A program made the position numbers and the translations under genes. Below are positions 5,272 through 38,810 of a stretch of 64,000 bases of DNA, piece after piece (within the stretch, counting starts at the first letter, position 1; each line of letters begins with the position of its first letter). The DNA is from Branchiostoma floridae (lineage: Eukaryota > Chordata > Leptocardii > Amphioxiformes > Branchiostomatidae), in NCBI RefSeq assembly GCF_000003815.2, contig NC_049983.1, forward strand, positions 20,240,553 to 20,304,552, read 5' to 3'. The notes beneath the pieces are model-generated. The model was not told the DNA's origin and ran no database searches. It was given only the letters and a program-made list of their open reading frames with translations.

Positions 5272-5783
5272 CGATCTTATCACCAGTGGCAATGACCTGG
5301 AGGTCACTGACACTTCGGGTGGATAGCGCTTTGCCTTACGTCATCAAAATATACATTTTACACTTTCATTGGGCTCAATAGACTAGCATATGTACAGGGT
5401 TAAGTTTTCAAAAAATCATCATCAAAAATACTGTATTTTCCTTTAGCTATATCCATGCACTCATTATCTTCTGTATACCATTAGTATGTTACTTTGTATG
5501 TATAAGGCACATATTTCATACAGACAGTAGCTAAAGGTATGAATTGATAAATCACAAAAAAAAAAAACGTTTTAACAAGAGTAATCCTTAAGCTTGTGAC
5601 GTAAGATTTCTAACCAGTTCTTTCATAAAGTTATGTAACATCATTGAAAAATTCAAGAATCTTAACAGTTTCATTACTAGCGGTTTTAGCCATCTGTACA
5701 TACAACAGAGCCAGTCATATTTCCAACGTAATCCCTTTTCATTGTACAAATAGCTGTACATAGTCATATTTCTATTGAAGTGC

Positions 5784-5789
5784 AATAAA
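5784..5789 (+). terminator. Poly(A) signal of receptor gene A
   Basis: AATAAA about 510 bp after the stop codon of gene A and upstream of gene B. It is the first canonical hexamer I see in the 3' flank. Confidence 0.5.
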
Positions 5790-6417
5790 GAGAATAACGT
5801 ATCATGAAATGTGTCTGTCCAGATCTGTCCATCACATGGCGTACAGTCAATGTGAAGGTCAATGATGTGTTAATACCAACTGCAAATGTAACCTTGTGGA
5901 CAATGTAGTTATCTATCGTGCGGACCAATTTATGATAAAAAGGAAAATTTATTAATAGATCTGTGATCAAATAGTGTAATGTAAATACGATACATCTATA
6001 TTCAAGACGTAGCAGAAGAACACTAAGCCTTATCAAAAATAAATGCGTATCTATGGTTCTACTGGTAGAATAAGATGAAATGGGATGAAATTGAATGAGG
6101 ATATATGCTGGTCTTTGGGATATATGTAGTACTCGGGCATTTCCCAATGAGATCACGACAAACGTTACTCATATCGATTTGTATTGGTCAGTACAAACAC
6201 CCGACCGTTTGCACAAGATAACCCAGCCACAGAGAACAATCCGCTGTCAATCACCACTAAAACATATCATTGGAGGAGAGTAGATTTGTTTGGCGCAAAG
6301 GATTTTGGGACAGGGTTGTTGTCAAACAAATCAAAGGTTCAGACCTTTTCACCTGTTAGATAATATTTTAGTTGAATCCGGTCGGGGATTTGCAGTGTTC
6401 GAGGGAGACAAGGGAAA
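5790..6417. other. Intergenic spacer and promoter region of receptor gene B
   Basis: AT-rich spacer between the two tandem receptor genes. No convincing TATA box or ORF seen. The open frames crossing it on the minus strand show no protein-family features. Confidence 0.4.
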
Positions 6418-9400
6418 ATGACTCCGTATGGCAGTTACGTTTTACTAGTGGTGCTGATGCTGGAGAACCCAGCACTACAAGGTGAGTGTGTTTCCAAAAT
6501 AATTATAGATTTAATGAGTATACCTTGTCTCTATTGTCTTTTTTTTCAGTGTCAATTCTGAGCATATATGCACGCATAGACGATGACAAGTAATATAGAT
6601 AGTGATACATGTATTGGCAGCTTAAATGTTCGCTGTAGTGTTAATGCAAATGACATTAAAATGTCATCTACTGACATGTTCATGATCAGATGTTGCATAA
6701 GACGGAAGAATCTAGGAAGCAGCCATGATTTTGTAGTTGCCGCGTTGACAAGTGTTACTGGTAAGAATGTTGTGCGACATGGTTCCGCTCAGAACTAATA
6801 TATAAAGACTGGTAGTGATTTTATGACACATTATCACTATGGGTATTATATTCCATCTATGTCTCATCGATGTTGTTTTGGCGCCTGAGCCTAAAAATAT
6901 GACCATACACATGTCGGTATAGAATGCGAATGTACTTGGTAATGATGACATCATGCTACACAGAGGCCACAGCATTGATGGCCTCTGAAAGAGTCTGAAT
7001 AAGCGATGATCATGACATTTCTTACTGTGTTTTTGTATGAAATTCTATGATCACTTATCACTTTGTTTATATGGCATTCAAAGTGCCACCCAATGGCTCA
7101 ATAGCAGTGTAGACTATATGATGGCCGTTTCTTATAATATTTCACATGCTCCTCGGTTTAAATTTAAAAAAGTAGATAATGTTTATAACATCAACATCAC
7201 ATAAGGTATCAGTGATGACCTCCAAATAGCCGGGCCATACACGCGTGTCCAGTCATTGGATAAACATTAAAGCCCACCCGCAATATACGAACTGCTGGTT
7301 TGTCATGTTGATTCAACAAACTAAAATGAGCACATCAAATAATGGCCAGCAACATATCTTTTGTAACTTTGGCTCAGATTGTAATTCTCAAACGACTTAA
7401 CAAAGCTGATGAACCATATCCATGTACAACAGCTAATAAGCGATAGGAAATTTGGACACTCACAAGCTAACGTTAAAAGAGATAAACTGTTAAGTTTAGG
7501 GGACAGACGACTTGTTACAACAAGGCAGTCCAATGTCTGTCTTGTTTCTTAACTTGTCACTTATTGCTGCCAGGTGGAAAACAAAGTACTTACTTCTCAC
7601 CTGAGTACGCTATCTGACAGTCGTCCATAAAATATGACTCAGGCGACAGGGATTATGAACCTAAATGTCATCGCGATAGGTGGTCCGTTCAGGGACAATT
7701 TGATCACTTTGTAATTGCTAATCATCAAAAAGGGTATTGCTCACGCAATTTATCAGAACACAAATTTGCCAATAGGTACATAAAAGAGATAACGATTTTC
7801 CGACCAGGATGAAGAGGATTTTGTACCTTTATTGTCCTTCTTTAACTACTCGTATAGTTGGATTTTATGTAACTGATCACGAAGTATAGTAATGTTCACA
7901 ATAAGATGTTACACTCTTCTTCTATAAATCTCCACTGAGGTGAAGCATGGTGTTTTTTCAAGTAGCTATCAGTGCATTCGGCTTCGCTACGGTTCGCGTT
8001 TTTAGGCGAGCACACCGCTTCACCTGTACTCTTCCCCATAATAGTCGGGTTCTTTTACATTCAGTTGAGCTGTGATGCCATTATAAGCTTCCTCATACGC
8101 AGGACCGTCGGTTGTACGTTCCCATGCGACAGGGCGACATGTGGTAAATTTCCTAAATTTTTGTTTTTCTATATAGGTTCGATGGGACAGACCTGTGGAG
8201 GAACCCTTAACAGAGACAGTCCGACACGGAACATCACATCTCCCGACTACCCAAACCCGATCCAAGCACTGATCACCTGTGACTGGATCATTGAAGCACC
8301 CACGGGTCAAGTTCAGCTACGGTTTGAAGAATTTAGTTTCTTCCAGACCATGCGTTGTACTACGTCAGAGCCAACTGTGTCAATATTTGATGGTTCATCT
8401 ATATCAGACCCATCACTAGGGCGGTACTGTGGAAATGAGAATGGGAACTTAGCGCCACCAGACGTGACAGTGTCGTCCTCAGGGTCTCTGTTAGTTCATT
8501 ACTACTCGGGAAGATACGGTGGAGCAGGAGTAGCGGGAGAGGGCTTTATCGCTACGTTTTCTTTCCCAGGTAGAGTTTGGTTTCAATGATCATACTATGA
8601 TTCAATGATCATGCCTGACACAGGAACCAATTTGATGGTACATGTGGTCATTTCTGATGATTAGTGTCTGATGTAGATAACCAATGTTGTCAAATAATCA
8701 AAGGGAAAACATTTTTATTATTGATAATTGTAATGTAGCCTTGAATTTGATTGTTTATATAACGCCAATGTATAACAACACCTCCACTCAAAACACAGGC
8801 GTAGTGGACTGTGCATCTTCGCCGTGTACTAACGGAGGGACATGTGTGAACAGACCTGACGGTTTCCTATGCCTGTGCCTGCCGGAGTATGTCGGCACGC
8901 GGTGTGAAGGTAATCTGTTTTCAAGAGGGCTTTAACTTGTCGAAACCTTTATTTCTTCATAATTTCCCTGAAGATTTGAATTTGGGCTGAATGCAATATC
9001 AATTATTTCTGTCCCCCCACAAGATACGGCCGGCGTCGACCACTGTGCCTCGTCGCCTTGTACTAATGCAGGGACATGTGTGAACGGACCCGACAGTTTC
9101 CAATGCCTGTGCCCGCCGGAATATGTCGGCACGCGGTGTGAAGGTAATCTGTTTTCAAGGGAGCTTTGCTTTGACGAAAATTTTTCTTCTTCAAAATTGC
9201 CCTGAAGATTTGAATTTTGGCTCTATGCAATATCAATGATTTCTTTCCCACCACAAGATGCGGCCGGCGTCGACCACTGTGCCTCGTCACCTTGTACTAA
9301 TGTAGGAACATGCGTGAACGGACCCGACAGTTTCCAATGCCTGTGCCCACCGGAGTATGTCGGCACGCGGTGTGAAGGTAATCTGTTTTCAAGGGAGCTT

Positions 9401-12400
9401 TGCTTTGACGATAATTTTTCTTCTTCAAAATTGCCCTGAAGATTTGAATTTTGGCTCTATGCAATATCAATGATTTCTTTCCCACCACAAGATGCGGCCG
9501 GCGTCGACCACTGTGCCTCGTCACCTTGTACTAATGCAGGGACATGTGTGAACGGACCCGACAGTTTCCAATGCCTGTGCCCACCGGAGTATGTCGGCAC
9601 GCGGTGTGAAGGTAATCTGTTTTCAAGGGAGCTTTGCTTTGACGATAATTTTTCTTCTTCAAAATTGCCCTGAAGATTTGAATTTTGGCTCTATGCAATA
9701 TCAATGATTTCTTTCCCACCACAAGATGCGGCCGGCGTCGACCACTGTGCCTCGTCACCTTGTACTAATGTAGGGACATGTGTGAACGGACCCGACAGTT
9801 TCCAATGCCTGTGCCCGCCGGAGTATGTCGGAACATTATGTCAAGGTAATCTGTTTTGATAGCAGAGTTTTATTCTAATGAAGCTATAATTTATGATAAA
9901 TTTTAAGTTGAAGAATCTCATGCGTATGTAAACCATTTGTCTTCTTTTGGTGTTTGACAACATTAAGAATAGTATTGTGCCACACATCAACATCACAGTC
10001 AATCGGTCTCACGTGCTTCTGTTATCAGGAAACACCCAATCAAAAGGTTAAATATGACGATTTCTAGCATCATAGCAACATCGAACTCCTACATTATAAA
10101 GACAATTCTGTTACTTTTTAGTGTCAAAATCGTCATGCTTGCTGCCACTGGGGATGGAAAACGGTGACATCGAAGACAGTCAGATCTCAGCATCAACAGA
10201 GAAGACTGGGTACGAGGCTTACAAAGGCCGGCTGAACGGTCCCCGTGCCTGGCAGGCAGACGTCGCCAACACTAACCAGTGGTTACAAGTCAACTTTAAC
10301 AACAGAACCATCATCACCGGGATCCAGACACAGGGTTTGTGGGGAGGGCATGTCAAGAGCTACAGGCTTCTCTACGGGGATAAAGAGGACGGCTTAACCA
10401 TGTATAAAGAGACTGGATTCAACAATAGCAAGGTAATGTTAACATATTAAGCGACACCCACAATATGTTTCCTCCTTGTCATACTGTAAATTAACAGGTA
10501 ACCCTCTCAAAAAAGGGCTTCACACTATTGAACCAGCAGTCATTTTACTCTGGAATTTTTTGTCTGTTGTTTCCCGTATTTGCCTCCAGATTTTTGATGC
10601 TAATTCCGAAGGACGAACAGTGGTCACAAGTAACTTTAGCCTGCCGATCCTTGCTTCCATCTTGAGAGTGAACCCTCAAGACTTCACATATAACTTGATA
10701 CGTCTCCGATTGGAGCTGCTGGGATGTGACGGTGAGAAGCCATATTGTCAGAGAATCTAGTCATTTTACCTTTGCTAGCTAGTCATTTTACTTTTGCTAA
10801 GTAGGTTAGGTTTTAGTGCCTTTTGTATGTACTAGTATTTGTTTCTGTAAACAAAAATTATGACACCAATGAATCCTATGTATGCCTATGGTTTATGAAA
10901 TTTTATCTGTCTGCCTTTCATCAGACATCGACCATTGTGCGTCGTCGCCCTGTATCAACGGAGGGACATGTCTGAATGTACCAGACGGCTTCCAGTGTTT
11001 GTGCATCCCAGAATATGTCGGGACCCGGTGTCAAGGTAATACGCGCGCATGTAAATGCTATCTGACATCGGTATAGTAGTCTAGTCTGTACCTGCAATAG
11101 AAATCATAATTATCCACCATGACCATGTCATTTTTCTCATTCAGTTTCAAAATCATCTTGCATGCTTCCACTGGGGATGGCAAGCGGCTACATTGAAGAC
11201 AGTCAGATCTCAGCATCGACAGAGAAGACTGGGTACGAGTCTTACAAAGGCCGCCTGAACGGTCCCCGTGCCTGGCAACCAGTCCTGGCAGACACTAACC
11301 AGTGGTTACAGGTCAACTTTAACAACAGAACCATCATCACCGGGATCCAGACACAGGGTTTGTGGGGAGGGCATGTCAAGAGCTACAGGCTTCTCTACGG
11401 AGATACAGAGGACGGTCTGACCATGTACAAAGAGACTGCAGCCAACAGCAGCAAGGTAAATTTGGCATCTTAGCTTCTCATAATAGCTAAGATGCGGCTC
11501 CTTCTAATAACACAAATAAACAAATGACATTTAGAAACTATGGCTAAACTACACATGATTGACATTGTGGCAGCAAGTATCCCACTACGGTGTCTTTTGT
11601 TTGTCGTTTTCATCTGCATCTTTCCTTTACCTTCAGGTCTTTGATGCGAATTCCGAAGGAACAACAGTTGTTAGTCATGACCTTGACGCACCGATCCTCA
11701 CGTCCATCCTGAGACTGAACCCGAGAGACTTCACAAATAACTTGATACGTCTCCGGTTGGAGCTACTGGGATGTGAAGGTGAGAAGTCATATTCTCAAGG
11801 TTTTACCTCCTCAAATATGCAGATATGTGTTGTATTTGGCTCTGAGAACATACTCACTTACACGCTGATAAATCTCATGTATGCAATGATATCTGTCGTT
11901 TTTCCTCAGACGTCGACCATTGTGCATCGTCGCCCTGTACTAACGGAGGCACATGTGTGCATTTGACTGACAGTTACCAGTGCATGTGCCCGCCGGAGTA
12001 CGTTGGAACACAATGCCAAGGTAAATTCCTAATCATAAGAACTACATATGTCAAGTGGCATATCATTGTATGTCAAATGACGCACATGTAGCTATGCCTA
12101 TTGTCATCTTTTAACATAGCTATAGCGAAATATTCAAATCACTATTTTTGCAACCATGTCGTTCTTCTCATTCAGTATCAAAAGCCTCATGCATGCTGGC
12201 ACTGGGGATGGCAAATGGTGACATTGAAGACAGCCAAATCTCGGCATCCTCGGAGGTGGCCGGATACGAGGCTTACAAAGGCCGCCTGAACGGTCCCCGT
12301 GCCTGGGAAGCAAACGTCTCCGACACTAACCAGTGGTTACAGGTCAACTTTACCACCAGAACCATCATCACCGGGATCCAGACACAGGGTTTGTGGGGAG

Positions 12401-14716
12401 GGCATGTCAAGAGCTACAGACTTCTCTACGGAGATACAGAGAACGGTCTGTCGATGTACAGAGAGACTGGGAGCAACAGTAGCAAGGTATTAGAGACATG
12501 TGACTTTCTATATCAAGGACCTTGAGTTAGTTGTAGAGTTTTGTCTTTTTCACAGACTACGTACAGATTTTTTAAAGATTTCTAGACTTTTCAGATCATA
12601 TCATTGGCATAATTTTGACGATTTTTTCATCGTCCTCTTTAGGTCTTTGATGCGAATTCTGACGGTACGACGGTGGTTACCAACGGCCTTGATGTGCCGT
12701 TTATCACGTCCATCTTACGAGTGAACCCACAAGACTTTAAGGGGACTTTGATACGTCTCCGTATGGAGGTGCTGGGGTGTGGAGGTAAGGGCATATTTGA
12801 TCTGATTGATGTTGACAGTGTGGATACCGTTGCAAGCTACTCGCATCACCTTGACTGCCGTTCTGTATGTTCTATTGTTAGTGTTGTCCATCAAAGGTAA
12901 ATACCATTGTCTTCTTCCCCCAGACGTTGTACCTTCAGCATCAACCCAGTCAGCTGGACTGACAACACAGAGTGCGTATACATCAGCTGCCTTATCCACA
13001 TCGCGGACAGTAACGACAGACGACGTGTCAACAGTTTCTCAAACTACATCTGCTCTGTCGACAACTGGCAAATCATCCACACAGCCTACAGTCGCAACAA
13101 CATCTGCAACAACTCAGCTAACTTTTCTTCCATCTACACAATCGGTCGCTCTCGGTCAGAGTTCAACTGCTTTGACGACAACCACATTACCAGTTTCTCC
13201 GACTACCCCAAGGACAATTGCACCTCCAGTTGAAACAACGACGGTAATTGTAGAAACAACAACGGCTGGGACAACAACAGTACCACCTCCAACAACTACA
13301 GCAACAGTGCCAACGCAAACATCACCCATAGTAGTAACGACAGATACAACAACAGCAGCACATCCAACAACTGCGGAAACACCGGCAAAACCAACGACAC
13401 CCAAGCTAGAAACGACAGCTACAACAAAAGTGACAACACTGCCTCCCATAGCGACAACAGTAGCTACACGAATGGTGGAAACGTCACAAACGATCACATT
13501 GCCAACGTCCGTCAATAAAATGACAACGGGAGTTTCAACATCAACGACAAGGGCGACCAACGCACCACTTCTTGTAAAAACTACAAAACCTGACGACTTG
13601 ATCAAGACAACGAAAAGTAGTACTCCTAAGCACACTACAGCGGCTAAAGAGGGTGACAAAGAAGCACAAACAGGCGACAGTGGAGGAGGAGGTAACACCG
13701 CGGTGTTCGCTGCTGCAGGAGCCGCAGGAGGAGTAGCGGTCCTGGTCGGAGTGGGAGTCACTGTCTTCATCTGCAGAAGACGCAAAATGTAACTATCAAT
13801 GTCTATTGATAAAATTATCTCACTGTTCTATTGGTCAGTGCAAATTACAGCTTTATTGTTGTATTAGACTCATATCAGATAAATAACATAGTCACTGATA
13901 TATGGGCCATAGAGTTGACATATAAAAGCTTACAAAGCTTAAATGTCATGCTAATGGTTTGTAATATTCTTGATAGGGATTACAACTAGCATAGATGCTC
14001 ATCGACCTACAGCATTACATCGTGCTATATGTTATTCTTACAGGAATCCCGAGGCCTCTGGTGTACCCATGCAACGACTAGATGCGAGCAACGCTCACAA
14101 CACGTAAGTCACTTTTTGGAATTCGAAACCGTTTCATTTGTGTATACAGATTACAGTATGTACTGGACAGGTACCGGTAGTCATACGAGTGCAGTGCTGC
14201 AATTCCTAACTGTAACTCTACTGAAGCAATATTGTGTCTTGTCAGCTTGAGAACCAAGTTTGCGCTTGTGCAAAGAGCATCTATACTTCGTTGCATATGC
14301 ATGTTGTATGCCACAATTTCAATACGTGTAGCACAAAAGTTTATTGTTTTTTTTTTGTGTCTTCAGAGATCATTCGAGTACTGATGTCGAGATAGAGAAT
14401 CCCCTCTATGGCGCGTAAGTCCATTTTTTTTGCTTCTGGCATTAATGTAACTATGTATAAATAAGCAACGTTATAAATATGGTTACCTTCGCCAAGAAGG
14501 CTATATTTTTGGTAGCGTGTGTTTGTTTGCATGTTTCAGATTTTTTTTCTGGTATTCTTAGAGAGGATTGTGAGTTCTAGTATAACCTAACTTGAATCAG
14601 ATCTATGCAGGAGAGATATTTGCACACTTCCTGTGAAAAGTTGTATTTTTGTCTGACCTTTCAGAATGGACGGGATCAATGCGCTGGGAATCAACGTGAC
14701 TGACAGCTCTGCATGA
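6418..14716 (+). CDS. Receptor gene B: SP-CUB-EGF(5)-[F5/8C-EGF]2-F5/8C-mucin-TM-NPLY tail
   Basis: Nineteen coding exons join in phase to 1217 codons: 6418-6481 (signal peptide [20 protein letters not shown]), 8177-8569 (CUB), EGF 8799-8909, 9024-9143, 9258-9377, 9492-9611, 9726-9845, F5/8C 10122-10432 + 10590-10731, EGF 10925-11035, F5/8C 11145-11455 + 11637-11778, EGF 11910-12020, F5/8C 12176-12486 + 12643-12784, mucin+TM 12924-13788, tail 14044-14103, 14367-14414, 14665-14716. Approximate residues: CUB 22-152, EGF1-5 153-349, discoidin 350-500, 538-688 and 726-876, stalk 877-1130, TM 1135-1159. EGFs have six cysteines and the CxNxxDxFxC pattern of the hydroxylated/Ca-binding class. The tail has ENPLYGA, an NPxY motif. 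All extracellular modules sit between phase-1 introns. CUB+discoidin recalls neuropilin/DCBLD and EGF+discoidin recalls MFG-E8/EDIL3, but the order and mucin stalk match neither. Function as an engulfment, adhesion or pattern-recognition receptor is inference. Confidence 0.9.
6482..8176. other. Intron 1 of receptor gene B
   Basis: The 1.7-kb intron separating the signal peptide from the CUB exon. It is AT-rich with no clear transposon. Its last 150 bp hold a coding-like stretch on the minus strand (8020-8139), listed separately. Confidence 0.6.
8020..8139 (-). other. Coding-like fragment, tyrosine-rich, antisense in intron 1 of gene B
   Basis: The minus strand reads an open, balanced-composition peptide of about 39 residues with Tyr clusters ([19 protein letters not shown]) that ends at AGGTGA, i.e. 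either a stop or an AG|GTGAAG splice donor. It may be a stray or exapted exon of another receptor's cytoplasmic tail, or chance. No partner exon was found nearby. Confidence 0.2.
9024..9845 (+). repeat. Tandem duplication of an EGF exon with its intron (234-bp unit, four copies)
   Basis: EGF exons start at 9024, 9258, 9492 and 9726, exactly 234 bp apart. The 120-bp exons and the 114-bp introns between them are nearly identical, differing by scattered single bases (for example TNAGT versus TNVGT in the encoded loop). Homology in the introns shows recent duplication of genomic units, not selection on protein alone. The last copy loses intron similarity after its donor. Confidence 0.95.
12924..13788 (+). 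other. Mucin-stalk and transmembrane exon of receptor gene B
   Basis: One 865-bp exon encodes about 250 residues of Thr/Ser/Pro stalk, a Gly-Gly-Gly-Gly-Asn linker, the TM helix and a CRRRKM stop-transfer. The region from [12 protein letters not shown] through the TM is nearly identical to gene A at DNA level, while the stalks have diverged. This points to selection or gene conversion on the membrane segment. Confidence 0.85.
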
Positions 14717-15155
14717 CGATTTCTTAATACAGTAAATACCTCAAGGAAATCCACACACAAGTTTTGTTATGACTACGACTTACCCGAAAGACATCGGTCG
14801 TTAAGTGAAACCGTCATGCCATTTGGGGCTAACGGTTTATTTTAAGTACGTAATAGATGCAGATTTTAGACATGCCTTAGAGGCGTTGCCAAAAAACGCA
14901 ACGCATTTTTTTACAATATCATTTACATCACCCAGTACATGTGTTAAGCACAGAGAAAAATATTCCTGCAATGTCAGATTCCGTGCTTGTAAATTCATTT
15001 AGGTCCGAGACTTTTTCAATGATTACAGTGTTTAGAAAATTTGTTATAGGCTTTACAAATATGAAACCAAAGACATATACAGCAAACAGTGCAACTGATT
15101 ACCATTGTATGTACATAGCCATGCTTCATCTAAGTGTAAATAACGTACAGAAGAA

Positions 15156-18414: not shown

Positions 18415-21400
18415 TCAGTCTTGTTCCATTGGCTCCTCAACATCCTCTGCCTTCTGCTCTTCTGAACTCTCCTCTGATTGGCTGGCAGGGGTTTCCGGTT
18501 CACTGCTGGGTTCCGGTTTGTTGGCAGCCTGGTCATGTGATGCAGTGGTCTGCTCTGATTGGTCGCTAGGCTGAGCTTCTTCTATCCTTCTGATTTTACG
18601 AGGGGATCCTGAAAGTGATACCAAAATTGTTAGAATGGTTATGTGAAAATTATGGACAAACAAGAATGTTCCAGAAGCTCAAAATCTAGAAAATGAAAAG
18701 TAAATATGCTGAGTAGAACCGTTTAACTTTTTAAAAGGGGTTCTAACAAATGCCCTGTGGCCATGACCAGCTCACCTGAATCCTCATGATCCTCTTCTAG
18801 AACCTCAGCTGACCTTGTACACGCTCTAGTTGGCCTTGTGCAGGGCTCTGGCTCACTTCCCTTGTCCTCCGGACTAGTGCTGGAGTCTGCCGAGGCTGCT
18901 GCTGGCTCTGTGGTGTCCCTGGGTTCTGCTGACTCCGCACATGGCAACGCCTCCGTGGGTTCCACAGGAAACATCGCCTCCACGGAGCTGGATGCTGCTT
19001 CTGTGGATTGACATGGTTCTGTGGAGAATGTCGTCTCTGCGGAGCTTCCTGTTTCTGTTGGATTGCAGTCCGGAGCTGAGGTAGGTGTGTCGTCCGACAG
19101 GGAGCTCTCTGAGGAATCTTCTGAAGTGGAACTGTCTGACGGTGCACTGTCCTCCCCGCCCATGTCATCCGCTATCCTACTTCTGTCTTCTAACTGTTCT
19201 GTATATGTGCTGTTCTGTAAACTGTTGTCCTCTTTGTCTACGGTTGTTTCCCCTGACCGGTTGTGTGACTCTCCCCCGTTCGTCCCCGTAGTGTGGTCTG
19301 TGACGGGACTTGATGGACTTGTCGTGTCGGAGATGTCGTTACAGACAGAGGGAGAGGCCCCGAGACTTGGTGTTTCTAAGTGATCGTGGTCAGGGGGAGG
19401 GAAGGGGGGAAGGGGAGAGGCACCGGCAGCGATTGGAGAAAGATGAGGGGCGGGGCACGGTGGGGGTGGCATGGCAACAGATCTGGAAAACAGAACACCA
19501 AAAGTTGTTCATGTACTCATAGTTCCTTATTTGTTTTTGTTTTTTTACTATAAAGTGTGTTTGTGACAGAAAATTTACAACAATGTTAGAAATTTGATGT
19601 GCCACTATGAGTAGGGTTTATCATTTTCTATTTCAATATGATATATTCATTTGTAACTAAACAATCTGGTCTTTGACACAAGTAACCATTCCAATAAATC
19701 TTTCACTTGGAGGTTTAAAACTTTGCCTTTCAGAGTTAAAGTTCTTACAGGCTGTCTGCTCCATCTTGAGAGGCGATCCCGTTCACCAGTTTGTCACCGC
19801 CAGCTGACAGACGTCTGCTGTTGGGTAGTAAAGAGAACTTGTCAACCACCAGTAACTACACAATGACTCTGACTACAGTCATGTACACTACGACATCTAT
19901 TTCTATCTTCTATAACATTACAGTCTATGGCATTAGTCCCATGTTTGTGTTTTTTACAATATTGATCAACAGATTTTTAAGCAATTCATCAAGGCATATA
20001 GAGTATGTGACAAAACATTTACCTTGCACCTCCATGGACTGTACTGACAACCAGCACGTTCTGGATTGCGATAAGAAGAACATGTATGGATTACATACAT
20101 TAGAAACTGTAGGAGTCTTTCTTAAAGACTCTTTTTTTCTGTATACATCTTCTCACAGGGGACATGGGCATGATTCATTAGACAATTGGGCGACTCATTA
20201 GACAATTAGATACATTTGCCCCTGAGAGACACAATGATGTCATGACATACCTAATCATTATACAACTTAAAAGTCGAACTGAATACTCTCATTCTTCATC
20301 ACTAATATTACCCGATTTCTAGACTGTTTTGGTAAATTTACAGGTCACTGACCTCAAAAATAAGGTTAACTTTCTCTAATGATTGTGTGCTTTACTTCTA
20401 ATGAAACTTGACAGGGTCAGGCTTCCAGCTGTAATTGGAGAACTATGACTTGGTTAATGGTGGAAACACAAGCATCTTTCTACCCTCTGGCAATAGGCAT
20501 TCTAAGTAACCACAATGTGTAATTACATATACACCATACAAGCACATGAAATACAACTTTTCTTTTTCTATCCCTTCTAAATCTGTTTAACAAAGCTCTT
20601 ATTTTACCAACAATCAATTCAAGACATAAATTTCTTATCTATCAATGTGAATCATATCTTATGGAGCAAAGGTCAATGACCTAGCACAAAAGGGTGAGGC
20701 CCCACTGGTGTAAATAGGTCATGTCCCAAAAACTGGTTTGTGTGGCTTTCTACACCATTACTCAATACTTAAACTAATAAACAACAAAGGGAAATGACAA
20801 AATGGACAGATAGCATAATTCAAAGGGCATGATTGGTCACAATATTACAATGTCACAAATTATGTGACTTGAAAATTAGGTAGGGCCAGTGAAAATATTA
20901 CAATCTGAATCATGGTATATATTCCTAAGGTCTCCTCCACAGAATGTCTGAAACATCATATTTGTGAAACATCATTATGTATGCCCTAAATCTTGTTAAA
21001 AACAAAAGGACACTGTGAAATATCTAGCAAACAATAAACACACACACAGGTATCTTATTGTTAAATTCATAACTGATAATTTGTAATACACAAATTGACA
21101 TGTAGTAATTAATCATTGACACCTGTTAAAGCTGCATGTCTTTCTGATAAATGCACCTGTACAAACAGTCTCTTGTGTGGTACATTTGTACCAAGGATTT
21201 CCATAGAAAATGCAACATCAGATGATACCAATGTTTAAAAGCCAACAGTATTAACGTTACTGTAAGTGGCATCCCTGTACGGAAGACCTTTATAAAGGAC
21301 ATTAATGGTTTTCCTTATAAATAGGACATACAAAGTGAACTGTGCAAGAAAAAGCATACCTTCTCCACACCCCTCAGGAACTTGTCACTTCTCTTGTAAT

Positions 21401-24400
21401 GCTTCTTTGGGTCTGTGACAAGCTCACACAATCTCTGCATGGTGAAGGGTGGACTGTACAAAACAAACAAGCCATTTTTCATGCATGATCAAACAATGTC
21501 TCAATGCATATATCACATTTTGTATATTTCCTACTTATAATATGTACACAAGGTAAAATGTTGCATACACAAATAAACCCTGACATAGTTCAACGTCAGG
21601 ACTACAATACTAGTATATCTTATTGCTTTGTCTAAGAATTTGTGGTTGCCTTATGTGGGTCACATACCTTAGAGTTAGACCTTTCTGATAGAGACCTGGT
21701 TGTCCTAGGAACCAAGTCCAACTACAATGCTAGTAGGTCATTACTCAAACAGCAACAACTACATAAAGCTTTTTGTCTATCATAATATAGTTATGTGTGT
21801 GAGCTGCCAGAAACAAAAGCAAATACGGTCAACATTAAAATTTTTAGTCATCCTGGTGACTTCATGACATTATCAATTTCTCTCCTGCATGACTACTGTT
21901 CTACAGAATTGTTTCAGCAGCGAATTTGGAACAACATGAAAATCTTCCATTTCCCTCCTAGTCCTACTCTTACCTCTTACCACAGCAAATGTAAATGTGT
22001 TTATAGTATACCTACCCAGTGAAACTTTCGATGATGCTGACAACTCTCTCCCTCATCTCCTCGTACGAGAGGTTTTCCACGTTGGGCGTCGGCGGTCCGT
22101 CGACCTTGGGCGCCTCCTCGTTGAACTCCTGCATGACCTTCTCCAGCTTGAGGAGAAACACCGGCTTCAGTCTGTTCCAGGGGTATCTGAAACACAGCCA
22201 GAAAATCAGTCACTAGAAACACCGGCTTCAGTCTGTTCCAGGGGTATCTGAAACACAGCCAGAAAATCAGTCACTAGAAACACTGGCTTCAGTCTGTTCC
22301 AGGGGTATCTGAAACACAGCCAGAAAATCAGTCACTAGAAACACTGGCTTCAGTCTGTTCCAGGGGTATCTGAAACACAGCCAGAAAATCAGTCATTAGA
22401 AACACCGGCTTCAGTCTGTTCCAGGGGTATCTGAAACACAGCCAGAAAATCAGTCACTAGAAACACCGGCTTCAGTCTGTTCCAGGGGTATCTGAAACAC
22501 AGCCAGAAAATCAGTCATTAGAAACACCGGCTTCAGTCTGTTCCAGGGGTATCTGAAACACAGCCAGAAAATCAGTCATTAGAAACACCGGCTTCAGTCT
22601 GTTCCAGGGGTATCTGAAACACAGCCAGAAAATCAGTCACTAGAAACACCGGCTTCAGTCTGTTCCAGGGGTATCTGAAACACAGCCAGAAAATCAGTCA
22701 CTAGAAACACCGGCTTCAGTCTGTTCCAGGGATATCTGAAACACAGCCAGAAAATCGGACACTAGAAACATGTTTACCCGACTGGCATGGACAGCTAAGT
22801 CATATTGTAAATGTACCCACCGAGATAGGTTGAACATTTTGATACTTGCAATTGCAAAACTTCTATGGTCAAACTTGGTCTAAAACTATTGTGTTGTATA
22901 CATGAAGATGGGATTTTAATTCCAATGGACGTCGGATACAACACTGTAAAGCCTGTGTGGGATAGTTTGGCATGTTACCTGCAACAGTGTACAACAAAGC
23001 ATTTCAAGGCTATCAGCCACAGGAACCAAATATTGTATTAGATAATGTTTATTATTCCATACTGTTATTACTGGCATTGATAATTGCCTGTGAAATTGGT
23101 ACCAGAGTGGCACAGTTTCAAACTTTGGTGGCCTCTTGCCAACTTCAAGTTCCAGATATGTACTTTGATTTGAAAGCTGCAGGTTCTTGGATCTAAGTTT
23201 AGACTTGACTTATACTTTTACATGGCATGCAAGTTGTATCCTGGGCCTGGCTAAAGGAGTGTGGAATAACATTGCCAAAACAAGGCCCAAAATACCCCTT
23301 AGGCCTTTGCAACCTGCAATGTGCAGGACTTTTCTTGTACAGTTACGGACGCCTTCCATTTTAGCGAGTAACAAATGTTAGCCTTGGTTTTGACGAAATA
23401 TCTTCACACAACAAAGTTTGCCACTTGGAGGGGTTTTGAGAAGCTCTCTATCTCTTTTTCAACCCAGCAGATCTTGACTTATATTCTCTTGTCATGTGAC
23501 TGGTGACGTTGATTAGTTACCATGTGACAACACACAGTTATAAACAGGTCCGAGATAGTGATGCCTTCTGTCTAGGATAAGGGTGATAGTCTGGGGATGT
23601 GAATTGCCTTAACTATGCTTTTATGAATAAAATACTAGTTTTAGTAGTAACATCATAATTACCAGTATACTAGAATATTAAATGTGAGTTGCAGTTAGGG
23701 CAGGTTCAGTGGCTTCTTTACAATTCCTGGCAATTGTAAAATTTACTGTACGTAACAGGAATCTGTACTTAAAGCCCTAATAATACCTCTTGTAATAAAA
23801 GTTGTATACTTGCTCCAGGAAACAATCTTCAACAATCAACAAAATATGGGTATGGGAGAATTGGGCATTTTAAAAACGTATCGTAATCTCTTACGTATGC
23901 CTACTTCAAGTTGTACTACATGTATTTCTTCCATGATACTATGAAGATGATCAAGATACAGTCTTCTGGTGGTTCAATGATTTGTTGGTTCTAAACGGTG
24001 CAATGGCCGAGTGGGTAGGATGTTCGCCTTGCATTCTGTAGGTCGAGACTCAGACGTGAGTTTGATCCCCGATTCCCCGGCCTAGTCATACCAATGACTT
24101 TTATTTAAAAATGATACATGCTGCTTTCTCTGCTGAGCACTCAGCACTAAAGAGGAAGCTTATACTAAGTTGTAGGAGCTCAACTTAAATACATACCACT
24201 ACCTGCAGACTAGCCCCATGCTGTAGTGGCCTGCACAAATGTGTGGCCCAAGGCCTACAGAAATGGCAATGGGCGCCGCTAATGAGCATCTGTTACAGAT
24301 GTATGACCAACTTTAATAATAATATCAGGTGTATTTGCAGCCAGTAGGTACCCAATGTGTTGAGTAATGAGGCTGGTTAACATGGTCAAGGCACCAGTAC

Positions 24401-25457
24401 TCGAACAGGAACCGTATTTTACGTCCCTCGTGAAAGACAATTGCGTGAAAAAATTCAATGCTTCGTGAGGCTACAGCATCCAGTCGTCCTTGGTTGGTCT
24501 TCCATCCAAGAACTGACCGGACTACGCGTTGCTTAACTTCCAAGATCGAGGGGTCAGGTGTATCCAACGCGCCAAACGGCCGTAGCAACAACTTTTAACT
24601 TCTGGTGGTTCTACTTCAGCCTTATGGATCAGTCTAGTTCATATTTTGGCAATGCTATTTCGTATTCTCTACATTTGTCTGGACAGTAACGTTACATTTC
24701 TACAAATTATTACACAATTTCACAAGCAACATCATTACATTATTTACTTACATTGTTTCTCCAGTCTTCGCTATGTGTCGCAGGTACTGTTCCAATTCTG
24801 GGGTCAATTCCTTCCTTTTCTCAAAGTCTGTGGAAAAAATCATGAAAAGGGCATGAAGGAAATGACTGGAACAAATTCAAATCACATATCAATATTTACA
24901 TGAAACCATATTATAATATAATAAAATATTTTCATAAAAAATCTGAAATTATGGCCAGTGATTCTTAACCATTTGGTTATATACTCAGTTATTATTTTGT
25001 AATCATAGGAAATCTAAGGAATACGTACAAAACAACGATTATCATATAATTTTTATTAGGATGATTATGAAATTCTCCTAGTCATACAAAGTAAATGTTG
25101 GCACAATGCCAACAAATGACCTAAACCTTCCACTTCAGTAGCTCTGTTGTCAATGAAATTATAAAGGAAAGTCGACTATTTCCTGAATGAGCTATACCTA
25201 ATCCATATCCCACACATAGTCGTAAAATATAACGTTTTCATCAGGACAACAGCAGACCCCCGCCCTCCCCAGAATCGGTCAGTGACTTCAGATTTTTTCG
25301 GCGCTCAGTTCTGGTGCGCAGATATAGCGACTAAAGACCCTCACATCCTCCTTACTTCTGCATAACATTCCCTCACAGATACTTCCTGTCCCAAGACTGT
25401 AACCTGGCGAAGTGTTTTACCTTCTAGTGCATGCAGGTAGGAATCACCGTTCTCCAT
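18415..25457 (-). CDS. PPP4R2: Serine/threonine-protein phosphatase 4 regulatory subunit 2
   Basis: Seven exons on the minus strand join in phase to 461 codons plus stop: 25421-25457 ([12 protein letters not shown]), 24752-24827, 22016-22186, 21360-21453, 19749-19855, 18776-19482, 18415-18608. The N-terminal ~150 residues match the family core: [44 protein letters not shown], then DKFLRGVEK. The rest is Pro/Ser/Thr/Glu-rich and acidic, with a basic SPRKIRRI patch near residue 400 (likely nuclear signal) and the conserved C-terminus EPMEQD. The product is the regulatory subunit of PP4 (with PPP4C and PPP4R3) in DNA-damage response and snRNP maturation (family knowledge). The human protein is 417 aa. 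The exon-5 acceptor (after GTGTAG, at 19855) is the least certain junction, supported by phase and the LLVVDKF start. Exon 3 is preceded by an array of copied acceptors. Confidence 0.95.
19856..21359 (-). other. PPP4R2 intron 4
   Basis: A 1.5-kb AT-rich intron with no exon, tRNA or clear transposon seen. Confidence 0.6.
22155..22770 (-). repeat. 61-bp minisatellite duplicating the exon-3 splice acceptor of PPP4R2
   Basis: Ten units start at 22155, 22216, 22277, 22338, 22399, 22460, 22521, 22582, 22643 and 22704, each exactly 61 bp, with a partial eleventh. On the minus strand every unit consists of the intron's 3' end (GATTTTCTGGCTGTGTTTCA, then G) followed by the first ~32 bp of exon 3 starting ATACCCCTGG. 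The unit nearest the gene (22155) is the real exon head and the other nine are upstream copies. Units differ by one or two bases, so amplification is recent. Confidence 0.97.
23993..24318 (+). mobile_element. tRNA-derived SINE
   Basis: The head resembles a tRNA: A-box-like TGGCCGAGTGGGTAGG near 24006 and B-box-like GTTTGATCCCCG near 24060. A ~240-bp body follows, ending in a TAATAATAAT tail at about 24311-24324. Located in PPP4R2 intron 2. Family name not assigned. Confidence 0.55.
24320..24597 (-). mobile_element. 5S rRNA-derived SINE (SINE3 class)
   Basis: On the minus strand the first ~110 bp follow 5S rRNA: TACGGCC near 24586, then GATCTTGGAAGTTAAGCA (A-box/internal element region) and GGTCAGTTCTTGGATGG (C-box region). 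The body runs to about 24320, facing the tRNA-derived SINE tail to tail. This promoter type defines SINE3 elements. Confidence 0.75.
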
Positions 25458-26667: not shown

Positions 26668-26999
26668 ATTAAACAAATGGCATGTAACTTTTCATGTACG
26701 CAATCATCACCTATTTGTTCTTTCACGCAATCTGCTGTCATTAGCATTTACATTACTTTGCGAGAAATAAACTGCATAATGTATACTGTTATATTTCCAT
26801 TTTTCTAGGTTGATAGATAATGTCAAGTAAGGAGATACTATGGCAAAATATTAAACAAATGGCATGTAACTTTTCATGTACACAATCATCACCTATTTGG
26901 TCTTTCACGCAATCTGCTGTCATTAGCATTTGCATTACTTTGCGAGAAATAAACTGCATAATGTATACTGTTATATTTCCATTTTTCTAGGTTGATAGA
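26668..26999. repeat. Direct duplication, ~150 bp at 182-bp offset
   Basis: The block starting ATTAAACAAATGGCATG and ending CTAGGTTGATAGA occurs at 26668-26817 and again at 26850-26999 with only a few substitutions, separated by 32 bp of unrelated sequence. Confidence 0.9.
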
Positions 27000-33333: not shown

Positions 33334-36300
33334 TCACTGCCCCACCAAGAGGGTAGGTCTGGAGTTGTACTCGACACACTTGGAGGGGTCTGCTGGGAAG
33401 TGCTGCTGGCACAGGGTCATCAGCCGCTTCAGGGCCTACAGAAACACGGCAGAGGGAAGGATATAGTTGGCTTTGTTAAAAGACTAAGTTTTGGTATACC
33501 ATGTATTTGTCGCTTAACAGCATAACTAAGGTGGAGGCTATGGATGGATTGTTATAATAGCAAGTGTTTATGTCTTGTCCTACACAAGAAATAAATAGAT
33601 TTCGGGTCCCCTGGCAGCTTTACTTTATACTGCAGCAAAATCTCTGCATTTATTGCCCACTCAGAATATATAGGTGCTATTGTTACACAAACTATTGAGC
33701 AGTCACTACACACATGTTTGACAGCACTTGTGGAGTGTGTGTAAAGACACATACCTGGATGTACTTCCTTTGTGTCTCGTCATTGAGAACATCTGCGGTG
33801 CAGTCAAGGAACCAACAATGATGTTGACCTATACATTTCTGCCCTATAAGACTAACTGGTACCTACATATAATATTTTTAGAACCCTACAAGGTATTTCT
33901 CAATATTCAAAATGACAACACCCTCTCTCAGCTGTCATATTACAAGAAAGAAGATTTTACATAACCTTCACAAAATTCATTGCTCATCAAATACTTGTGC
34001 TCAAGAAATAGCATACAACTGGCGCCATTTAAAAGTATCCAGAATTTTCATTTTCTAGGCTGGCATTGTCGTTATTGTTGACAGTACAAAAACATCACTC
34101 AACCCTATGGGCTTCACACAAGACTCCATGTAAAGGATACGGGCCACGTTCTGTGCAAAGATCTTCTCTCTGCCGGTACGTGCGTGAATGCCGACCATGG
34201 TCACACCGATGGGCCATGGTGCGTTTCCTATCGCCATTCTCAGATAGGCATCATTAGCCTGAAACAACACAACACATTTGTATATTACATTCAGTCTGTG
34301 GTCACAGTTGCTGTCCTCAAACACTTCAAGAAAATGTTAAAATAGCACCATTAGCTATTGCTATTTTGGACACTTCTGCATCTTCATTCTCCAGAACTGC
34401 CTATTCCCATAGCATTTTCAGCCCAACAAGTCCAAATCTGAACTACGGTTTGTGCTTATTCATGACATGAAACTTGGAACTTTATTAAAGCACCACTTTG
34501 CAGGCACATGGGTAATCCTGAATTGTGTTGGTGTGTACACGTACAGCTTCAGATCATTTCAAATTTTGTTATCAAAACTAACATTGTTTAAAACTTATTA
34601 CAATTAATTTTTAAAAAATTTATACATTCTCAGATTTACACCTCAGTTTTTCTATAGCATAAAGAAATGACACGTACCCTCACATACTCTCTTTCCAACA
34701 GGTTTGAGACTATCTCTAGTAGGGCAAACTGGATATCAGATGGGACTGACTGAAGCACAACAAAAGAACATACAAAAAATCATTTGCGGTGAATATTTAC
34801 ATGCATAATAATACTATTACGGCTTTACTAAAAATGTTTATTATCTCAATTTTTGCTCAAAGTTTAAGGTAAGTGTTAAAAATACCTTTTAAACATTGCA
34901 GGTTTTAAATGCTCTCTTACTCAGCTTTTGAAGGTGATCCCTAAAAATGCTCAAGTGAAACCAAATGTGCTCTTAAGCTTAATCTATAATGTTCTTCCAT
35001 CAATGCAGAATGGATGAGAAACGCTTTGTTTTTGAAACCTTTATGACATCACAGCTTGTTAGGATACAATTGCCATACAAGTTGGACCATCAACAGTAAC
35101 AATTACAATGCTACAGAGTAGACATGCACCTTCTTCTTGAGCTTGTTGAAGAGTGGTCGGAGGTACTCCCCAGTCTGTGCATGTGTGGCCGTCATGAGCT
35201 TCCCCTGAACACTTCTCTTCACCTCCTCCTGACGAGCATTCAGCTCCTTTGCCCACTGATCCATCAGGAACTGGGACCACAGGACAGCAATCATCAACAC
35301 AAGTTAACTACTAGTATCTGGCAGTAGCACAAGAAACGTCCTAAACCCTCTCTTAGTATCTACCTCTTCTCTTGCATTCATGCTTTTAGGTACCATATAG
35401 GAAAGGATCTTTTTAAGTACAGCATGATTATTGCGAAAGTGTAACAATGAAAAGATGCCCCGGCTCCTACACTACCAAATACATAAGTCCTGTACCTTCA
35501 GCAATGATAAGCCCATTCAAGGATCAACTGAACATGCACAAGTAAAAGCCCCTGAGACATAGGCAAAACATGTCTGACCACTGTTATGTAAACCAACCAA
35601 CTGAAGCCATATATTTTGTACAAAAAATGGCCTTGACAAAAAACTGTTTACAAGATTACTACTCAGGGGCCTTCACCTTTGACCTTGCGCATATGTTCTT
35701 GGAATCATGAACCTATTGAGTACTGAAGGTGAAAACAAGAAGGAACGTGAAACAATTAGAGTCCAGGCTAACCAAACTGCTTTACCTATTTTTCCTCACC
35801 TTCAAAAACTTGAGAATCATCAACGACTCATTGCCACGCCTCTCCTTGTCATCTGATATCTTGCTCACAGTTGCTGCCATTTCCTGTAAAACACAACATA
35901 TCCTTTAATGTTATAAGAGTCTTCATACACACTTGTTCAAGACAAGTTAATGCTCATCCATTGTGGGTGTGCCTTAGTAATCATGTTGTAGTGATGTCTC
36001 AATTTCATCTGTCAAACCAAATAAACATGTATCTTAGCTATGATTATTACAAATCCATCAAAGAAACATGCATAGTAGGTGCTGAACGAACTATTTCTAG
36101 TGTCCCTACAAACCTTGATGTCTTCCAGAGTTGTACCGTCGTCGCTGACCCGGAGGTCGTACTTCCCGCGGGTGGGTCCGTCCATGCCCTCGCTGCGGGA
36201 CTCCACCATCTCCTTCAGGTACTGCTCGTCAACCTTGTCCATGGCAGCCTTCAGGTCATTCCTGAAGCCCTAAAGTGTGAGATAAGAAACTTTGGTGAAA

Positions 36301-38810
36301 CGAAAGACAACACTGCTCGTCCATCTTGTCCATGGCAGCCTTCAGGTCATTCCTGAAGCCCTAAACTAAAGTGTGAGGTAAGAAATTTTGGTAAAGGGAA
36401 AGACAACACTGCTCGTCCACCTTGTCTATTGAAGCCTTCAGGTCATTCCTGAAGCCCTAAAGTGTGAGGTAAGGAACTTTGGTGAAACGAAAGACAACAC
36501 TGCTCGTCCATCTTGTCCATGGCAGCCTTTAGGTCATTCCTGAAGCCCTAAAGTGTGAGGTAAGGAACTTTGGTAAAAGGGAAGACAATACACAATTATG
36601 ACAACTACCGCTAGTCTACAAAACAAGGAATACATGTATAACAAAGATGACAATAGTATAAAAGTGACCAAGATATGCACAACATAATTTCACTAAATCT
36701 TAAAGAGCATAAAGTTGCAATTTTGAATCCATAAGTCTGTGTTGACCGTGAATAAATACAAAATTGCTGTCACTTATATCTAACATTACAATACAGTTAT
36801 GTTTGAGTTTATTTGTGTTAGCCTAAATGCTTACCTTGTTCACTTCAGGCTCTAAGATTTCAATTCGTCTGAAAAACACCAAGCAAGGACGTTTACCGGT
36901 AGTTATGAATAACGTTTAGTAACTACATCCACATTTTGCCTCATAAGTAGAATGAATTGTTAATATTTGGTACTAGAATATTGACAGGTATCAAACATTG
37001 TGTCGCAGTATATTGTGTGATCAAAAACTGACCATGCTTCATTTTACAAAATAGTACTTAGCTTATACAAAACTTAACAGAAGTCTCTAGGAATAAGTAC
37101 ATGTTCCACACCTTAACCTCTGGTACGCGTCATAGTCTGTCTCCCCAAACAGTCTGACAGGCTCTTCTCTCTCGCGCAGTCTATAAATCACCTGAATATG
37201 AATAAAAACAACATCTTTTGTTTGTACTAACTTCAGTACAGACATTGCTTTAAAATGCAAGTCAGACCTGCAGTAATATTATACTAATAAGTTTCCCAGC
37301 TCAAAATCTATTTTGGGTGAATTTTCACAACTCTATATACCTGTTCAGTAATGTATATTTCTATCATTTTTACCATATAGTCTTACTGGAACCTACAATA
37401 GCATTAAGGTGCACCTAACCAAAAAATTTAAGATGGACCTGACTGGATGGACCAGCAGAACAATACATGATACAGATGGATCAGTCTGGATCAGACGGAC
37501 TAGAATTTAACAGAATCTAGCATACCTAATTTTGGTTAATGAAATCTGAGCAGTTAAACCTAAGATATCTATATTGATGTCTACACTGACCTCCTCTCTA
37601 GGTAGCATCTTCTTCTCCTTCTGCTCAGGGGAAACCTTGGATGTTCCTGGTGTGGGTTCTGTGCTTTTCTCCTGTTGCATCCATTTTGAAATACATGTGA
37701 AACAAGTACACCATACCAATATTCACATATTTCCATAGATTAAAAACTTGAAAAAATAGTTCTTTTCAGTTAAAGGAGCTATGACTGATATCTCTACAAC
37801 TAAATAAAGATGGAGAATTATGAATAACAGTCAGATACTTATTTCAAAATATCACACCCCAAACATTAGGAATAGATTCTCTTTCTCTGACATTAGTGAC
37901 AAGCAAAACATCAAATTGACCAGGGATGCTACTAGGTCAAATGTGGCCACAATACCCCATTTTGGCTGAAAATTAGGAAAAGGCCACACTGTGTACGGGA
38001 CAAAAATCCCCCACCCCAACTCCTTCGCTCCTCTCACACACACCCCATGCAATTTATTTTCTGGAAACAAATGTGATAGACATCAATTCACTGACAAATA
38101 TACTGTGCAAATGGTGCAGGCAAAATGTCAGAATCAACCAGTCCACACACCTCTTGATCTTGCTTGTCTTTCTCATACTGAAAGAGAATGAACAGATAGC
38201 GAGTTAGTCAACATATGTATTGACATCCATCAATAAGTACAAATGTGAATTATCAATATGTATATTGTCTTTGATGAATAGGGACACGGAGAAGCTTTGC
38301 ACTGCTACAACCCAAAAATAAATCCCAACAAAATGTTGAAAGTTATCCCTCACCAAGTTCATCCGTCTGTAGTAGTCTTCTTCTTGTTTGGCCTGCAGTT
38401 CACCTCTTTTGAAGAACTTCTTGTTTTCCTTCGTGTTTGCAAAATACATTGATTTACAGGTAATTCATTATATTTCTTTTAAAGAAATCTTTAATCTTTC
38501 ACACTTTTCACAAGAACACAGATTTACACTTGACAAATCACACTTGACAAAATTTGTGAAATATCAGGCATTTGATTCATTCATTCTATGACAGTTCAAT
38601 ATGACTTTACTCCTAGTGTCAATAATATTTCAATGACCATGATAATTACAAATTTGTTGACCTCTTGTTTAAAAAGTACGAATTTTTCAAGCATGGCTAT
38701 GTGTAGAAGTTTCCGGAAGTCAACAGCCCCCCTCCCACACTTACATCCACCAGCTTGGCGTCTTCTAGCTGCTTGCGTTTCCGCGCCATCTCCGCTTTCA
38801 GGATGTCCAT
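33334..38810 (-). CDS. PRPF18: Pre-mRNA-splicing factor 18
   Basis: Thirteen exons join in phase to 357 aa: 38745-38810 ([17 protein letters not shown]), 38354-38428, 38151-38177, 37591-37671, 37112-37191, 36835-36868, 36114-36269, 35800-35883, 35130-35270, 34678-34749, 34141-34258, 33755-33792, 33334-33435. The splicing-factor motif [20 protein letters not shown] (residues 84-103) binds upstream partners. The Prp18 helical domain follows from about residue 170 ([25 protein letters not shown]-type helix, then the highly conserved [20 protein letters not shown] loop). PRPF18 acts in the second catalytic step with SLU7, stabilising the 3' splice site (family knowledge). Human is 342 aa. The C-terminus ends VEYN plus nine extra residues. 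Exon 10 has two candidate acceptors 4 nt apart; phase selects 34749. Exon 7 is preceded by copied acceptors. Confidence 0.97.
36220..36585 (-). repeat. ~91-bp tandem array duplicating the exon-7 splice acceptor of PRPF18
   Basis: The exon-head segment GGTCATTCCTGAAGCCC (plus strand) occurs at 36254 (the functional exon), 36345, 36441 and 36532: spacings 91, 96 and 91 bp. Each copy holds about 50 bp of exon 7, the AG acceptor (CACACTTTAG on minus) and about 40 bp of upstream intron. Upstream copies have a few substitutions, for example CTTTAGG for CTTCAGG in the fourth. Confidence 0.93.

Follow-up and report, generated by a model that had tools for sequence, protein, structure and literature searches.

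The end of intron 2 of PPP4R2 in the lancelet Branchiostoma floridae, together with the head of exon 3, stands ten times in tandem, each time with a complete 3' splice site. The question arises as to how such an array was generated, which of the ten acceptors is used, and whether their number matters for the output of the gene. From our analysis of the window (the whole stretch of 64,000 nucleotides containing the gene), we consider it highly probable that the array is a neutral, length-unstable minisatellite of the kind known in amphioxus as 'mirages', and that splicing mainly uses the copy lying flush with the complete exon.

Anatomy of the array and consequences for the reading frame

Joining eight coding exons of the minus strand gives a protein of 461 aa, which matches Pfam PF09184 (PPP4R2) over residues 8-287 (E=4.6e-53); no solved PPP4R2 structure was found by sequence search. 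Introns 2 and 3 measure 2,565 and 562 nt. The features of the locus are as follows, in window positions.

18415..25457, minus strand: PPP4R2 coding region (Pfam PF09184)
25457-25421, 24827-24752, 22186-22016, 21453-21360, 20060-20023, 19817-19749, 19482-18776 and 18608-18415, minus strand: PPP4R2 exons
22016..22186, minus strand: exon 3, 171 nt, spliced from the last acceptor
22154..22770, minus strand: tandem array of ten 61-bp units plus 7 nt (Tandem Repeats Finder, unit listing, pattern search)
22710..22770, minus strand: unit 1, the intron-most, acceptor exon base 22735 (unit listing, pattern search)
22222..22709, minus strand: units 2-9, eight decoy acceptors, exon bases 22674 to 22247 (unit listing)
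22161..22221, minus strand: unit 10, acceptor exon base 22186, the sole one to give full-length PPP4R2 (splicing through the gene)
22154..22160, minus strand: exon-side copy of TGTTTCT, the intron-side copy at 22764-22770 starting the array (presumed microhomology of the duplication)

Intron 2 also holds a 5S rRNA-like sequence (24468-24587, minus strand; Rfam RF00001, 48.4 bits), which may represent the start of a SINE derived from 5S rRNA.

Tandem Repeats Finder describes the array (22154-22770) with a period of 61, 10.1 copies, 98% matches and a score of 1178, and a pattern search placed the unit at ten sites of the window, with 0-3 mismatches each, and at none in 100 shuffles. Each unit comprises the end of intron 2, TTTTCTGGCTGTGTTTCAG, followed by 33 nt of the exon 3 head before the true exon diverges. 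Within it, TGTTTCT is followed by a CTGAT resembling a branch point (in unit 1, CCGAT), by a stretch rich in pyrimidines, by CAG and by 26 nt of exon 3, the TGTTTCT of the next unit completing the 33 nt. The original prediction, of ten complete acceptors in a row, each with its tract, its CAG and some 32 bp of exon head, is thus borne out. The first exon bases of the ten acceptors are 22735, 22674, 22613, 22552, 22491, 22430, 22369, 22308, 22247 and 22186.

The 23-nt acceptor window is identical in all ten units, and its score of 5.2 falls inside the span of the six other PPP4R2 acceptors (4.02-10.07); here and throughout, splice sites of this lancelet were scored with vertebrate frequencies. 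A branch-point-like match to yUnAy is found in nine of the ten units, unit 1 alone being without one. The units differ at five positions in total: three differences from the consensus are private to unit 1 at the intron edge, an intronic change is common to units 4, 5 and 7, and an exonic one to units 7 and 8. Units 2-10 therefore vary at two sites only and the edge unit stands apart, as in concerted evolution. Both exonic variable sites are synonymous in the true frame; with synonymous changes making up about 20% of all changes possible in the exon head, and 32% of transitions, this could be a faint hint of constraint (n = 2).

We then spliced all ten acceptors in silico. Only the last one, at 22186, yields the 461-aa protein, and the nine upstream acceptors all end early, as had been anticipated. 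With the ninth acceptor, which retains one extra unit, the frame is shifted and a TGA in exon 4 (window 21426) is reached after 124 aa. With the first eight, which retain two to nine extra units, a TGA within the array-extended exon 3 ends the product after 71 aa in every case. In the 124- and 71-aa products, the family match is limited to residues 8-48. The early stops lie 881-1528 nt before the last exon junction. A stop so far ahead of the last junction is expected to elicit decay of the transcript, so that all nine mis-spliced RNAs are predicted to be degraded.

Choice of the acceptor and origin of the array

Given that the core site (tract and AG) is equal in all units, the choice among them must come from their context. 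Two local features were considered as selectors and rejected. An 8-bp hairpin, TGTTTCAG/CTGGAACA, may form over each acceptor CAG, with its loop just past the junction and a core of -7.8 kcal/mol; it cannot explain the choice, because its stem sequence does not vary among the units and pieces from units 1 and 10 fold alike. As for branch points, the few positions at which units differ upstream of the core window do include some within branch-point-like motifs: unit 1 is without yUnAy, and units 4, 5 and 7 have an extra one. Unit 10, however, is no different in this respect from units 2, 3, 6, 8 and 9.

We favor exon definition as the main basis of the choice. The exon running from the last acceptor to the exon 3 donor is the shortest (171 nt, versus 232-720 nt from the other nine), and across it these two sites would pair. 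The last acceptor alone continues into the remainder of the exon, all other copies leading into a further pyrimidine tract. Splicing to any of these nine would produce an early-stop RNA, presumably short-lived. A transcriptome survey reports that, in long introns, preference goes to the sites nearest to each other across the exon (PMC9225289). The same survey describes an overall leaning of alternative 3' sites towards the upstream one, a preference that its passage on equal-strength 3' sites in long introns calls 'significantly reduced', without stating a reversal (PMC9225289). Because of this upstream leaning, some leakage to the upstream PPP4R2 copies would be expected, which decay could hide.

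The locus is of interest for splicing in general. Ten acceptors of a single intron are identical over 23 nt, so that they cannot differ in the strength of the core site; they differ only in position, in what follows them downstream and at a few sites further upstream. The array therefore allows proximity, scanning and exon definition to be compared in an unusually clean natural setting.

As to origin, we regard the array as a young minisatellite, the unit of which extends by chance across the acceptor of intron 2. TGTTTCT is found at both edges of the array, and the first step was most likely a tandem duplication between a TGTTTCT of the intron and another in the exon head, 61 bp apart, which would have left two units. 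The array may then have lengthened by slippage or unequal exchange. That units 2-10 are almost identical indicates recent growth or homogenization. New copies would join the complete exon on its intron side; the gene would therefore stay intact, provided that the flush copy is the one mainly used.

PPP4R2 and the published amphioxus mirages

The PPP4R2 array belongs to an already known type of repeat, of which it is a new example in another gene. Mirages were named in 2002 work on Adh3 (as cited in PMC3087553). They are known in Adh3, in troponin C (a mention, as cited in PMC3902484), in globins and in PGBD5, where they duplicate an intron/exon boundary, many of the units containing splice signals (PMC3087553, PMC3902484). 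Every mirage feature that could be looked for was found in PPP4R2: the units span an exon-intron boundary of a lancelet gene, and they carry splice signals that are potential cryptic sites. In the open-licence literature, our searches for mirages or minisatellites of amphioxus or Branchiostoma found PMC3087553 and PMC3902484, and no paper on amphioxus PPP4R2 was found.

The closest layout is that of the globin gene BflGb6, as described in PMC3087553: there too, the 3' end of an intron and the 5' part of an exon, exon 2, are repeated, in units of 150-160 bp, six in one haplotype and three in the other, with concerted evolution within the array and one edge unit left out of it. The PPP4R2 units are more uniform (lowest identity about 92%, by hand count) than those of BflGb6, for which 81-100% is reported (PMC3087553). 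In BflGb9, the repeat lies where exon 2 ends and measures 157 bp, and this gene and BflGb5 lie head to head, about 40 kb apart, in B. floridae (PMC3087553). In PGBD5, repeats of 60 and 108 bp lie at splice sites, those of 60 bp at exon 3 being present in two copies in one sequence version and seven in another (PMC3902484). Unlike these published cases, the present one concerns PPP4R2, with a 61-bp unit in ten copies, and is known here from genome sequence alone.

Two globin loci of the same assembly look like the published ones. A Pfam search located globins at nine places, for all of which about 1 kb on each side was examined (eight stretches). At L034 (C18), a 158-bp array of 4.2 copies repeats an intron end and the head of exon 2, and all three upstream acceptors lead to stops. 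At L030 (C7), 157 bp of an exon end are duplicated together with the donor, and another globin lies 42 kb away on the opposite strand, head to head. In unit length and boundary type these two loci resemble BflGb6 and BflGb9, respectively, the second also in its spacing from the neighboring globin. The repeat listings contain no boundary array at the other seven of the nine places, one of which (L029) is adjoined by a 17-bp array.

These precedents bear on three other explanations. The array could be an assembly artefact, the true locus having fewer units or the copy number being wrong. Such errors have precedents, BflGb6 haplotype 1 being described as misassembled in the draft genome (PMC3087553), and the repeat counts of PGBD5 differing among sequence versions (PMC3902484). 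However, the 61-bp array is matched once in the whole 513-Mb assembly of 431 contigs, at the PPP4R2 locus alone, its units can be told apart at five positions, the PGBD5 repeats are backed by re-sequencing (PMC3902484), and the two globin arrays of this assembly fit the published unit lengths. We therefore regard an artefact as very unlikely.

The original prediction also offered a functional alternative, in which the copy number of the array sets the share of PPP4R2 transcripts lost to decoys and nonsense-mediated decay. In favor of it, the upstream acceptors equal the real one over 23 nt, their products all stop well ahead of the last junction, and mirage length does vary by haplotype (six and three units in BflGb6; PMC3087553). 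Early stops, however, are no evidence of design, because added sequence derived from an intron ordinarily brings them, and similar arrays lie in genes as unrelated as PRPF18, globins and IFT122. Moreover, the Adh3 data and globin RT-PCR suggest that regular splicing is undisturbed (PMC3087553), and in their passages on splicing the two amphioxus papers report mirages without disturbed splicing or aberrant mRNA (PMC3087553, PMC3902484). Tuning of PPP4R2 by copy number thus finds no support, and we hold it to be very improbable.

Finally, internal units might be on their way to becoming new exons or intron sequence, according to a model published by Ebner and colleagues for the globin arrays (PMC3087553). 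Such a process would be helped by a GT at 22777, immediately beyond the intron-side edge of the array, with a score of 5.45. Within the units, however, no GT scores above 3.25, compared with 5.27-11.23 for the seven donors of PPP4R2. With so low an internal score, none of the units is as yet credible as an exon, and we give intron or exon gain very little credence. The preferred reading remains that of a neutral minisatellite.

Outside amphioxus, two systems may be compared with the PPP4R2 array. In the IFI6-type minisatellite, a repeat at an exon edge likewise supplies several splice sites (PMC4526556), but these are donors, and downstream units are used, giving three mRNA species (PMC4526556, citing Turri 1995). 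Human segmental duplications also contain internal tandem repeats, some of them at exon-intron boundaries, and these are akin in that variable repeats at a boundary can alter intron structure (PMC2812944). The boundary cases are described as creating novel introns, mostly with an alternative transcript that keeps the repeat, and of the internal repeats as a whole at least half change the coding sequence, unlike in the present case (PMC2812944).

Boundary arrays elsewhere in the genome

A second acceptor mirage lies in the window itself, about 13 kb from the first.

36221..36588, minus strand: PRPF18 array, about 91 bp, four copies (Tandem Repeats Finder)

The exon bases of its acceptors are 36547, 36456, 36360 and 36269; the last of them alone keeps the frame, and all three upstream ones lead to early stops. 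The preceding exons match a solved chain named 'Pre-mRNA-splicing factor 18', a match that extends no further than two residues into the repeated exon, and the Prp18 domain is encoded about 2 kb beyond that exon. The fragment containing the repeated exon has no Pfam match; from its frame and its sequence, we take this exon to belong to PRPF18.

We then surveyed 250 kb of other sequence of the genome, namely 20 stretches beside the window and five on other contigs. Repeats with a period below 25 were removed before counting (46 of 70 rows in one listing, 6 of 10 in the other), and 20 rows with a period of 25 or more, some of them overlapping, were found in the 250 kb. Five of these arrays were inspected and the rest were judged from the unit alone. 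Two cross a boundary, and both are donor arrays. In an IFT122 homologue (L016, about 845-935, minus strand), a 45-bp segment with the donor is present in two copies, and the second donor, if used, leads to an immediate TAA. The other (L023, 6075-7455, minus strand) consists of 27 tandem donors with a period of about 50, behind a putative exon of 191 nt that is open in one frame and whose last 8 nt are common to the units. The nine donors nearest this exon all read CAG/GTAAGG (the slash marks the junction); the other 18 include 11 with AT/GT, and distal donors often read CAT/GTAAGG.

Extrapolated from two in 250 kb, the genome would hold some 4,000 such arrays (Poisson range about 500-15,000), an estimate drawn from a small and partly non-random sample in which exons were recognized by eye. 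That donor arrays of two and 27 copies occur in so small a sample suggests that there may be many more. Against a high rate, the repeat listings contain no boundary array in four of about 13 groups of chaperonin (TCP-1) regions, 18.1 kb in all, where the sole tandem array listed is a TCAC microsatellite (L037), and none at seven of the nine globin places. Such arrays matter for gene annotation, as exon predictors could choose the wrong copy. In all six arrays described (PPP4R2, PRPF18, L034, L030, L016 and L023), the copy flush with the exon keeps the frame, or presumably does so; this follows in part from geometry, since only the flush copy is joined to the whole exon.

A bolder reading is that arrays of poison acceptors form a regulatory layer, the allele length in PPP4R2 tuning its output and the array in PRPF18 allowing this factor of 3' splice-site fidelity to sense its own activity. 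PRPF18 would do so because its transcripts would be degraded when fidelity is lost; yeast Prp18p is linked to 3' splice-site choice (PMC10711555). We consider this reading extremely improbable. It is likelier that such arrays, of which the genome may hold hundreds to thousands, together provide a natural assay for the discrimination of identical tandem splice sites.

Other repeats were noted in passing. A motif, TTTCTAGTG, occurs at 22 places in 355 kb where about 4 are expected; we discarded it as a dispersed element, most of the excess lying within tandem arrays. Three arrays in the flanking stretches (L003, L011 and L020) had no evident boundary duplication on inspection. That of L003 (2390-2546, plus strand; 64 bp, 2.5 copies) starts just inside an intron, behind an exon that we take to be tubulin-like, with a decoy-like TTTGTAAGT in two of the units. 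In the window, a 182-bp repeat of 1.8 copies with 98% matches (26668-26999) shows no evident exon. Also in the window, a 234-bp array of 4.5 copies (8808-9857, plus strand) appears by eye to repeat an EGF-type exon whole, together with its intron.
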